The notes under the pieces were generated by a model that was not told the DNA's origin, did not search any database, and saw only the letters and a program-made list of their open reading frames with translations. A stretch of DNA of 43,497 nt. Source: a virus. This document shows positions 4,554 through 20,164 of this stretch, in pieces. Position numbers and translations under genes: made by a program. The DNA is taken from IMG/VR virus record IMGVR_UViG_3300036876_000124, positions 1-43,497 of that record. One strand, given 5' to 3'. The stretch's first letter is position 1; the number at the start of each line of letters is the position of its first letter.

Positions 4554-4911
4554 AGTATCGTAGTTGGTTCGGAACGAGCCATCAGGCGTTAACATAGAAG
4601 TATTAAATTCAAGCGTAGCCTGAGAATCTTCATGTAAGGTGAAGAGGTTCAAGAATGGTTGTTTGAAGCGTTCTAAGAGCACGACGGACCCGGATGGCTT
4701 CCGGCACCTCCACCAAGTTTTGTAACACGCATCAATATGGGGGTGAACATGCCGTTTCGACGGAGTGAATGAGGAACGGGGACAACTCGGGATGCTGTGG
4801 CCTACCGGTCATACTGGACACAGAAACAGTAAACGCAACTGCTCCAAAAGCATTTGCTGCCGCTGCATAAGCGACCCTAGACCGTGTCTAGGTTCCTCAA
4901 CACGACAAAAG
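4554..4911 (+). ncRNA. ssrA: Circularly permuted (two-piece) tmRNA
   Basis: The acceptor half comes first: CACCTCC (4705-4711) followed by ACCA (4712-4715). A 23-base spacer separates it from the coding half, which begins GGGGGTG (4739-4745). The two pair as a 7-bp acceptor stem, with a G-U third pair as in alanine tRNA. The coding half has the tmRNA signature TTTCGACGG (4755-4763) and then a tag frame ending GTA AAC GCA ACT GCT CCA AAA GCA TTT GCT GCC GCT GCA TAA (4829-4870), read as ...NATAPKAFAAAA. A hairpin (4876-4892) follows the tag. Upstream of the acceptor, several short hairpins (4570-4660) fit the pseudoknot domain. The product would rescue stalled ribosomes and tag the nascent peptide. 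This order (acceptor then coding) is known from some bacterial lineages. Exact mature ends are not visible. Confidence 0.85.
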
Positions 4912-4933
4912 ACCCGCGCAAGCGGGTTTTTTT
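4912..4933 (+). terminator. Rho-independent terminator of the tmRNA
   Basis: ACCCGC, a GCAA loop and GCGGGT, followed by a run of seven T. This is a perfect 6-bp GC-rich stem placed just after the tag-distal hairpin. Confidence 0.9.
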
Positions 4934-5070
4934 GTTTTCCGGGTACTCTAGTAGAGCGGTACTCAGCGGATTTTTTGCCGTTTCATCCGTGAAGATTGGA
5001 TCAAAGCGGAACGGCGTCAGGTTCAATCGATATCGCTCGCAATTCGGTATTTTACTATTAGGCGGTCGAT

Positions 5071-7787: not shown

Positions 7788-7817
7788 TAGACAAATATCG
7801 TGACTTCGTAGTATAAT
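7788..7817 (+). promoter_or_regulatory. Promoter before the first ATG-ACA-TAG gene
   Basis: TAGACA (7788-7793), 18 bases, TATAAT (7812-7817). The -35 extension TAGACAAATATC resembles the TTGACAAATTTCC boxes at 4519, 10375 and 11642. The start codon at 7835 would follow a leader of about 11 bases. Confidence 0.6.
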
Positions 7818-7834
7818 ACATGTAGGAGAAAATT

Positions 7835-8059
7835 ATGACATAGGTTCAACCGTATTTTTACTTGTTCATCCGTCAGGATCTTTCTGCTGCTCAGCAGATC
7901 GTCCAGTCCAATCACGCAACCTTTGAAGTTGCTCGCCGTTTACCCCCTGAATATGAAGAAACTCCCAACCTAGTTCTTATTGGTGTGCCAGATAAAACCG
8001 AACTTTTCCGTGTGGTCGAAAAACTTAAATTTCATGAAATTGATCATCAGGTTTTTTAA
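7835..8059 (+). CDS. Pth2-like protein N-terminal part, TAG at codon 3
   Basis: AGGAGAAAATT precedes ATG ACA TAG, and the frame then runs on as VQPYFYLFIRQDLSAAQQIV to a TAA at 8057. The segment FIRQDLSAAQQIVQSNHA (about residues 11-28) is the start of the peptidyl-tRNA hydrolase II-like family found in phages, whose conserved part begins right at this point. The natural start is therefore the ATG, and the amber codon (7841-7843) lies inside the gene. A TTG at 7862 is the only obvious start after the amber codon. The C-terminal half of the family (threonine-alanine motif) continues in the same frame after the TAA (see 8060-8209), so the gene is also broken there. Confidence 0.6.
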
Positions 8060-8209
8060 ATATCCTTTTTCGGTATTTTGAATGTATACTGGAACATGGA
8101 CGATATCAAAGGCACTGTAGCAACCGCGGATAATCCCATATTGTCATCGGGCTCATACAAGAGCAGCGCCGTCCATTATCAAATTATCAAACCTGGAAGG
8201 AGCAAAACA
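8060..8209 (+). pseudogene. Separated C-terminal half of the Pth2-like gene
   Basis: In the same frame as 7835-8059 but after its TAA, about ten codons of unrelated-looking sequence are followed by NMDDIKGTVATADNPI and then VHYQIIK. This fits the Pth2-like C-terminal pattern (Asp..Thr-Ala-x-Ala-Thr..Pro..Tyr-x-Leu-Leu-Lys). There is no stop before the next gene's ATG at 8210, so the frame runs into it. I infer a decayed or interrupted gene. A -10-like TATACT lies at about 8080. Confidence 0.45.
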
Positions 8210-8644
8210 ATGTCGTCAATTAAGGAAATGGCTATTCAATGCAAGCAACTAGACGCGCAAATCACAAAGGCTGCGCAGAAAGCCTTTAAAGACTGCTCTG
8301 AGGCAGGGCTTGTTTTAGAAGAACACTGGCCCAGCGGTGTATGGGAACCGGCATACGATTATAAATATTATGACCATGAAATTGATGCCACTGGTATCGA
8401 TATTCAAGGTCATAAGTATATCGGTGGAGGTGAGTATGCTGACGCAAGAGTGCATGTGACCTTTGAAGCCTTTGAGGATTTCGACACCTACATCGGTCAG
8501 AAAAAAGCGGAGCACGCCGCCGCTAAAACTGAAAAAGCAGCTGAAAAGGCCGCATACGATGAAGAGGAACGCTTAAAAGAAGAGGAACGCGAAAAACAGT
8601 GTTATTTGAAACTGAAAGCAAAATACGAAGGAGAAAAATTATGA
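8210..8644 (+). CDS. Hypothetical protein with charged C-terminal coiled coil
   Basis: A 144-residue protein starting at ATG 8210 behind GGAAGGAG. The open frame extends further upstream through the Pth2-like remnant, but the strong Shine-Dalgarno site supports this start. The first 100 residues look globular (YDYKYYDHEIDATGIDIQGH). The last 45 are a Glu/Lys/Ala-rich helix, probably a coiled coil. The final TGA overlaps the next ATG (8641-8644), so translation is coupled to the second ATG-ACA-TAG gene. Confidence 0.65.
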   Translation: MSSIKEMAIQCKQLDAQITKAAQKAFKDCSEAGLVLEEHWPSGVWEPAYDYKYYDHEIDATGIDIQGHKYIGGGEYADARVHVTFEAFEDFDTYIGQKKAEHAAAKTEKAAEKAAYDEEERLKEEEREKQCYLKLKAKYEGEKL

Positions 8645-8796
8645 CATAGGATAAAGAAAATGCTTTGAGATTGGCGGAGGCTGTCATTAATGTTCATCGT
8701 ACTAATGAATGTCCTTTTTGTTTTACCGACAATTGGGAACATGACTCTGAATGCCCCATAATCTTGGCTAGAACCATTTTGGAGGAAGATTCTTAA
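8641..8796 (+). CDS. Small zinc-finger protein with TAG at codon 3
   Basis: AGGAGAAAAATT precedes ATG ACA TAG (8641-8649). The frame then stays open as DKENALRLAEAVINVHRTNE and continues through CPFC and HDSEC to a TAA at 8796, 51 residues in all. CPFC...H...C is a zinc-binding pattern common in small phage proteins. The region before the amber codon is nearly identical to that at 7835. Without suppression only Met-Thr would be made. A TTG at 8665 could serve as a weak internal start. Confidence 0.6.
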
Positions 8797-10264: not shown

Positions 10265-10339
10265 GCCTCGATAGCTTAGTGATCAAAGCTGCCGTCTCTA
10301 GAACGGTGATCACCGGTTAAAATCCGGTTCGGGGCACCA
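10265..10339 (+). tRNA. Amber-suppressor tRNA, anticodon CTA
   Basis: The acceptor stem GCCTCGA/TCGGGGC (7 bp), D stem GCTT/AAGC, anticodon stem GCCGT/ACGGT, loop CTCTAGA and T stem ACCGG/CCGGT, with encoded ACCA. The anticodon CTA (10298-10300) reads UAG. The T loop is TTAAAAT (not the usual TTCRANN) and the D loop lacks the GG pair, so the elbow is unusual, with both partners changed. The variable loop is short. Discriminator is A. The amino acid cannot be assigned from the sequence. Confidence 0.8.
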
Positions 10340-13438: not shown

Positions 13439-13522
13439 GCCAGCGTGGCACAGTGGACGACTGCACCTGCCTTGTAAGCAGGAACACAAACATCATCAGT
13501 TCAAATCTGATCGTTGGCTCCA
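13439..13522 (+). tRNA. tRNA-Thr (TGT)
   Basis: Acceptor GCCAGCG/CGTTGGC, anticodon stem CCTGC/GCAGG with loop CTTGTAA and anticodon TGT (13473-13475), T arm ATCAG-TTCAAAT-CTGAT, discriminator T and encoded CCA. The variable region is about 12 bases, longer than the usual 4-5. This tRNA reads ACA, the second codon of the two ATG-ACA-TAG genes. Confidence 0.85.
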
Positions 13523-19245: not shown

Positions 19246-20164
19246 ACCATCTTACGGTATTTGCGTTGGGCGATTTCAAGTTAATGATCTTCACGAAGGT
19301 CACATGGAGTTGTTTCGTCAAATCAGCGCGAGACACAACGGCGTAATAGTATTCGTAGGCAAAGCCCCCGCTGGACTCACTCAAGACAATCCTTTAACCT
19401 TTGAAGCACGTAGAGCGATGATCAACGCCAAGTTCCCGAATTTTACAGTACTTCCGCTTATGGACACCAAAACCGATGAGCAGTGGAGCGCTGATTTGGA
19501 TACCGCGATTAAGTCTGTTGTGGATTTTGGGGATGTCACTCTTTATGGGGGAAGGGACTCTTTTGTACCCCATTATTCTGGGCAATACAAGCCCGTGGAA
19601 CTCGCTCTACCCACGCAGAGTGTCAGCGGTACGGATATTCGTAAAGATGTTTCCAATAAAGTGATTGAGTCATCAGAATTTCGTGCGGGTATGATATACG
19701 CCCTGCACCATTTATGGCCGGTGCTATTGCCTTGCGTAGATATCGCTATCTTCAATCAGGATTATACTCAAGTACTTTTAGGGCGGAAGCCCGGAGAAAA
19801 AGAATTCCGGTTTGTTGGGGGGCACGCTGAAAAGAAACACGGCAGCTATGAAATCGGGGCTCGCTATGAAGTGCTGGAAGAAGCAACGGTTGAGCCTGGT
19901 GCTATGCAATACATAGGATCAGCAGTTATTGATGACTGGCGTTATCGAACGGTAGACAGAGGTATTATGACCGCCTTTTTTGCTACCACTGTCAGCAACC
20001 AAGCCTCGCATCCAAACGATGACATAGTAGAAACTCGTTGGTTTGATGTAGATAAATTAAAACAATCGGATTTTGTGGACACGCATCATATACTATATAA
20101 AATGATGATGGCGTGGTTAGTAAAACGATCCGTAAAGGAGAATTATGGAACCGCTAAAGCTTAA
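19235..20164 (+). CDS. nadM: Bifunctional NMN adenylyltransferase / Nudix hydrolase
   Basis: A 309-residue protein with two domains. Residues 1-175 are a nucleotidyltransferase with GICVGRFQVNDLHEGH (HxGH at 20-23) and SGTDIRK (about 131-137), which joins NMN and ATP to NAD+. Residues about 180-300 are a Nudix domain with GGHAEKKHGSYEIGARYEVL followed by EEA (about 196-218), likely an ADP-ribose pyrophosphatase. This order matches the known bacterial and phage NadM-Nudix enzymes. GAAAGGAAA lies upstream. The end overlaps the next gene by 20 bases, so the two enzymes are made together. Confidence 0.9.
   Translation: MLNKPSYGICVGRFQVNDLHEGHMELFRQISARHNGVIVFVGKAPAGLTQDNPLTFEARRAMINAKFPNFTVLPLMDTKTDEQWSADLDTAIKSVVDFGDVTLYGGRDSFVPHYSGQYKPVELALPTQSVSGTDIRKDVSNKVIESSEFRAGMIYALHHLWPVLLPCVDIAIFNQDYTQVLLGRKPGEKEFRFVGGHAEKKHGSYEIGARYEVLEEATVEPGAMQYIGSAVIDDWRYRTVDRGIMTAFFATTVSNQASHPNDDIVETRWFDVDKLKQSDFVDTHHILYKMMMAWLVKRSVKENYGTAKA

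Follow-up and report, generated by a model that had tools for sequence, protein, structure and literature searches.

An early amber codon, probably opened by a phage suppressor tRNA, at the start of PTH2-like and other genes of giant phages

Many unrelated giant phages share an early UAG in the same few genes, above all in one for a PTH2-like protein, and also encode a tRNA that can read UAG; it looks, therefore, as if activity of this tRNA were needed to turn the genes on. From comparison of the sequences, we consider it highly probable that the UAG forms an amber gate near the start of a few genes apparently concerned with tRNA and peptidyl-tRNA, and that the phage suppressor tRNA opens it. 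Ribosomes would initiate at the ATG and reach the UAG after 1–12 codons, where RF1 would normally release a tiny peptide; with the phage tRNA-CTA abundant and charged, an amino acid would be inserted and the full-length protein made. The gated products would be a PTH2-fold protein, an HD protein like the HD part of CCA/A-adding enzymes, and a small zinc-finger protein. Readthrough at the gate, its dependence on the phage tRNA and its purpose are what we infer from these arrangements.

The window, the whole stretch of DNA analysed here, is an IMG/VR virus record of 43,497 bases. The features that matter for the gate are all on the + strand:

4657..4870, +, permuted tmRNA (Rfam RF04321, 74.4 bits)
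7788..7817, +, putative sigma-70-like promoter TAGACA-18-TATAAT, directly 5' of the first gene (consensus scan, 11/12)
7824..7828, +, Shine-Dalgarno AGGAG of the pth2-like gene (from the sequence)
7835..7843, +, ATG ACA TAG, start and amber codon 3 of the pth2-like gene (from the sequence; early TAG kept in relatives)
7844..8059, +, remainder of the Pth2-like frame, 71 codons and TAA (alignment, selection after the TAG, PTH2 fold of a family member)
8210..8644, +, gene between the pth2-like and the zinc-finger gene, with a normal start ATG TCG TCA (ORF list; homologue in L002/L033)
8629..8633, +, Shine-Dalgarno AGGAG of the zinc-finger gene (from the sequence)
8641..8649, +, ATG ACA TAG of the second gene (from the sequence; MT-TAG kept in the L043, L044 and L053 homologues)
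8650..8796, +, remainder of the CPFC zinc-finger-like frame (translation, homologues)
10265..10339, +, amber suppressor tRNA, anticodon CTA (ARAGORN; Rfam RF00005, 59.5 bits)

An earlier note on this DNA had described two nearly identical ribosome sites before ATG ACA TAG at 7835 and 8641, long frames running on past each TAG, a tRNA-CTA at 10265 and a tRNA-Thr at 13439. The two sites are present in the sequence (AGGAGAAAATT-ATGACATAG at 7824-7843 and AGGAG-N7-ATGACATAG at 8629-8649), ARAGORN predicts both tRNAs (the second, with anticodon TGT, at 13439-13522), and Rfam also classes them as tRNAs. The two are supported as real genes, and relatives of both keep an early TAG. With the TAG read through, the frame at 7835 has 74 codons and is Pth2-like, and that at 8641 has 51 codons and encodes a CPFC zinc finger; the stop of the gene between them overlaps the zinc-finger ATG (ATGA). 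A third ATGACATAG, at 20019, has neither a ribosome site nor a long frame. The exact DNA cassette GGAGAAAA(N)TTATGACATAGG has a single match in IMG/VR, which we attribute to chance, since its TAG is not followed by a long frame and it does not resemble the window.

The window tRNA-CTA has an encoded CCA, A73 and G37; the G37, where A37 is usual, was counted against the gate reading. Its ARAGORN label, Pyl, is a reflection of the CTA anticodon only, and a nearest-neighbour search for its isotype among about 530 phage tRNAs gave best matches scattered over Arg, Lys, Thr and Asn. The permuted tmRNA is followed by a CyVA-1 RNA match (4657-5036), and a tmRNA also lies 5' of pth2 in the relatives L002-L006.

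A profile-guided scan for relatives of the pth2-like gene yielded 55 loci, which were then clustered. At 90% identity 35 clusters have a leader of 1–12 codons beginning with ATG, a TAG and then the core of the protein; there are 22 such clusters at 70% identity and 14 at 50%. Wherever a relative of either window gene has an early stop, that stop is TAG. A first scan brought up five IMG/VR relatives; the TAG stood immediately 5' of the conserved core in all five, behind the leaders MKLQLEGL, ML, MSQH, MQ and MA, and each relative had one to three tRNA-CTA, with a tmRNA upstream.

Cultured phages with the early TAG include Serratia BF, CBB, GAP32, ME3, Arash and XacN1, and also pT24. The leader is MTH-TAG in BF and in the uncultured LR756511, MAQ-TAG in CBB and GAP32, MAH-TAG in XbC2 and Kaldavass, ML-TAG in Salmonella Arash, and MT-TAG in Acinetobacter ME3, where an annotated CTA tRNA adjoins the gene. 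XacN1 and RAS14 have the PTH2-like domain C-terminal to an HD-type domain in one fused protein, and the TAG is codon 3 of the fusion; in XacN1 its ATG lies at record position 243,735, the annotated gene beginning at an internal start. Tenacibaculum phage pT24 has the fusion in the reverse order behind an MK-TAG leader, with an annotated tRNA-Sup, and LR745206 has pth2 and HD as separate genes with an early TAG in both. A whole-genome scan of BF left pth2 as the sole early-TAG gene after filtering, and no early TAG occurs in the canonical second PTH2 genes, as far as these could be read, of XacN1 and BF. The one match in a scan of GTDB, on a contig of an Agitococcus MAG, lacks the early TAG, as well as any tRNA-CTA in the 10 kb covered. 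An early TGA paired with an opal suppressor was sought in Agrobacterium phage Atu_ph07, which has such a suppressor, and no member of the Pth2-like family was found there. RaK2 (L018, 2911-3000) has an in-frame CAT-TAG-GTA just 5' of its pth2 ATG, resembling the H-TAG leader of relatives, which may be the fossil of a gate after loss of the tRNA. In L082-L084, near 8001, pth2 starts ATG ACT CAA (MTQ), with a sense codon at the place of the others' TAG, although the records of L082 and L084 do contain a tRNA-CTA.

The choice of stop codon was also examined in a scan of 56 loci (765 kb) for a Shine-Dalgarno sequence, an ATG, at most 12 codons, a stop and at least 35 open codons. It gave 82 candidates with TAG, 68 with TGA and 44 with TAA. 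Frames were retained if another locus held a homologue of less than 85% identity that also had an early stop at a similar offset; 44 frames in four families remained, all with TAG and none with TAA or TGA. They comprise 33 pth2 frames, six HD, three zinc finger (window 8641, L044, L053) and two of an SVKEAAE family. As the loci were picked for pth2 and not for TAG, the stop-codon choice is no selection effect, and on these counts the early TAG is far from chance. The recurrence of the zinc-finger family with TAG independently confirms the second window gene; a fourth homologue, in L043, also reads MT-TAG, giving an early TAG in four of four phages. This gene set also has a small number of further in-frame TAGs. 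In the HD gene of BF, CBB, GAP32, XbC2 and Kaldavass a conserved one (LDTG-TAG-GD; L007, L008, L011, L012 and L016, around 1818-2384) lies mid-gene and divides the gene in the records. An additional in-frame TAG lies in one loop of pth2 in LR756501, L067 and L075, and two ambers in one gene would be expected to make expression rise more steeply with suppression.

That the first window gene is Pth-related, as the earlier note had it, was borne out on a relative, L080, rather than on the truncated window copy. The AlphaFold2 model of the L080 HD-PTH2-like fusion (pLDDT 85.7) has a clear PTH2 fold at its C-terminus, which matches MJ0051 (Foldseek, E 1.5e-6, TMt 0.73) and AF2095 (VIA Z 15.0, rmsd 1.9 over 102 residues). 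Pfam PF01981, with a cut-off of 23 bits, scores 25.3 for XacN1, 28 for LR756511 and 12.8 for the window copy. The window copy lacks the C-terminal strand: its frame ends HQVF-TAA (8041-8059), and in the alignment all relatives run on into EPD...GLxAxAT. This end is either a natural truncation or an indel in a TTTTTTAAA run, and the copy may be decayed or specialised. The conserved lysine of the PTH2 motif GKxAxQ has a catalytic role. It is absent from the amber-led proteins, where the aligned residue is Q or another (QQxVQSNHA), so we call these PTH2-like rather than proven hydrolases, their activity not being assured. In XacN1 and BF, which also have a canonical PTH2 gene, the amber-led protein is a divergent paralogue. 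The similarity of the HD part to the HD region of CCA/A-adding enzymes is seen by profile (E 2.7e-4 against A-adding enzymes) and weakly by structure (Z 5.8), so that any activity of this kind is putative. Since HD and PTH2-like parts are fused in both orders, a joint function is suggested, plausibly on tRNA 3' ends or peptidyl-tRNA.

Three means served to look for suppressor tRNAs: ARAGORN, a pattern search, and a covariance model made with 20 phage tRNA-CTA. The last of these, together with reading by eye, recovered tRNA-CTA missed by ARAGORN in L047, L049 and L062. With related phages counted, tRNA-CTA is present in 34 of 37 early-TAG clusters vs six of 14 relatives without an early TAG (Fisher p=5e-4). 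In most loci the tRNA-CTA lies within 5 kb of the pth2-like gene on the same strand, and RaK2 and Hallingskeid, complete genomes with no early TAG, also have no tRNA-CTA by ARAGORN. The early-TAG clusters without it are two short fragments and LR745206, which has two early-TAG genes, yet no tRNA-CTA was found in its 634 kb. For XbC2 the scan covered its close relatives, which have the tRNA. Five phage kinds (L051, L052, L055/L069, L071, L082-84) have a tRNA-CTA and a pth2-like gene without an early TAG; it follows that the tRNA serves other purposes too, or that phages can lose the gate. Two tRNA-CTA missed by ARAGORN have unusual insertions: the one at L260 13161-13267 (record of L047) has a long variable region, and that at L103 near 1417-1541 (record of L080) has about 48 nt inserted in the D-loop region. 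The record of L046 (L266 17075-17150) has a phage tRNA whose anticodon, TTA, would pair with UAA.

The pairing of gene and tRNA could also reflect a lock of ownership, in which the amber prevents expression of the gene in cells or competing phages that have no such tRNA, as cargo protection or addiction, and senses nothing. The closeness of the two in most loci would let them move together, and RaK2 and Hallingskeid lack both the tRNA and the TAG. In XacN1, RAS14, L050, L054 and L080, however, the tRNA is tens of kb or more away, and the product shows no sign of toxicity; we regard the lock as unlikely.

Still less probable is the proposal that the two-codon frame acts as a minigene, like the lambda bar minigenes, through drop-off of Met-Thr-tRNA that Pth relieves. 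Leaders here typically have 2–4 codons, the downstream product has a PTH2 fold and the window has a tRNA-Thr(TGT), but the leaders vary freely in codons and length, from 1 to 12 codons (MT, ML, MK, MA, MTH, MAQ, MSQH, MKLQLEGL, MRKAIGDL and others), and only the TAG is fixed. Long leaders such as MRKIDEGNITGL are no minigenes, and the zinc-finger gene has the same design without being Pth-like. Of the earlier note's expectations, conservation of the TAG in relatives holds (35 clusters; zinc finger in four of four phages). Because the leaders differ, with no conserved dipeptide and no single sense tRNA conserved across them, its Met-Thr minigene and its role for the ACA-reading tRNA-Thr find no support. 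Its suppressor-dependent switch, as an inference from TAG conservation, the linkage to tRNA-CTA and the Pth-related product, is the best reading.

Several signs suggest that the TAG of this amber gate is meant to be read. Purines at +4 raise amber suppression (PMC6266110), and the +4 base is a purine in 33 of 35 early TAGs (90% clusters) vs 50 of 108 terminal TAGs in four phages (p=1e-7); with clustering at 70% the count is 21 of 22 (p=9e-6). Over the first 25–30 codons after the TAG, dN is 0.04–0.15 vs a dS of about 0.6 to saturation, and by this measure the frame after the TAG is under purifying selection. It is thus very improbable that the TAG lies outside a translated gene, either with the protein starting downstream or as part of a pseudogene. 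GenBank records do begin the pth2-like gene inside the domain, or omit it, and in L047 the TAG is immediately followed by an ATG, but most clusters have no ATG between the TAG and the first beta strand (0–9 codons apart), selection acts on the codons immediately after the TAG, a Shine-Dalgarno sequence precedes the pre-TAG ATG in nearly all, and the TAG is kept across deep divergence.

Among long ORFs, those that end in TAG number seven of 34 for the window, 66 of 333 for G002 and only eight of 328 for BF; a share of about 20%, as in the first two, would make strong suppression costly. Recoding of the whole genome (code 15), which would make the early TAGs mere sense codons, has in its favour the tRNA-CTA and the internal TAG of a few genes (HD of the BF/CBB group; pth2 of LR756501, L067 and L075), but is the least credible of these alternatives, given that TAG ends those ORFs, that single-TAG interruptions of frames show no excess over phages lacking tRNA-CTA, and that TAG recurs at the start of the same genes. 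By these counts TAG elsewhere is an ordinary stop, with no genome-wide recoding.

As to purpose, we tentatively place first proportional control, by which the supply of proteins for cleaning up peptidyl-tRNA or tRNA 3' ends would follow the level of suppression; simple timing during infection is ranked second to it, and both, like the ownership lock, fit the observations. More doubtful than proportional control is a feedback circuit in which UAG readthrough would be the signal: suppression by the phage tRNA would switch on the PTH2-like/HD tRNA-end module, which would limit or repair the damage of suppression, or act on the suppressor tRNA, and the circuit would have been retained across phages of very different hosts (Pseudomonadota, Tenacibaculum). 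If the gate is real, a stop codon serves as a dedicated translational gate on specific phage genes with the remaining code unchanged, and amber suppression is tied to tRNA and peptidyl-tRNA maintenance. The early amber would also account for the truncation or omission of these genes by gene callers.

No description of an early-amber gate was found in the phage-recoding papers searched, a set with most subscription papers outside its scope. PTH2-fold proteins have been described in jumbo phages, where they are thought to clean peptidyl-tRNA (Iyer et al. 2021, PMC7824862), in a survey with no mention of the stop codon. Like the lambda bar minigenes, as cited in PMC8012679, the present genes have a very short ORF to a stop and a link to peptidyl-tRNA hydrolase; unlike them, these have no conserved leader codon, a long downstream gene in the same frame and a suppressor tRNA. 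In prfB, the gene for the translation factor RF2, a stop codon that is always the same is likewise conserved close to the start and gates the full-length product (PMC12421855). There, however, the stop is TGA, passed by +1 frameshifting, and it senses RF2, whereas here it is TAG, the same frame continues directly after it with no frameshift, and the phage has a dedicated tRNA. Also related are the code 15 crAss-like and other phages, whose stop codons are recoded by suppressor tRNAs, according to the account in PMC11210395, citing Borges et al. 2022. They share with the phages studied here a phage tRNA-CTA, in-frame TAG in phage genes and a proposed control of expression. TAG is spread across many of their genes, and the control proposed is that of lytic genes (PMC11210395), whereas here TAG is still a stop genome-wide and sits just past the start of a small conserved gene set. 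For XacN1, the same phage as analysed here, which has two tRNA-CTA per terminal repeat, the authors read through amber stops without finding any target of the amber tRNAs (PMC5852040); the early-amber genes, present in cultured phages, would give the suppressor tRNAs of standard-code phages, previously without one, a recurrent target.
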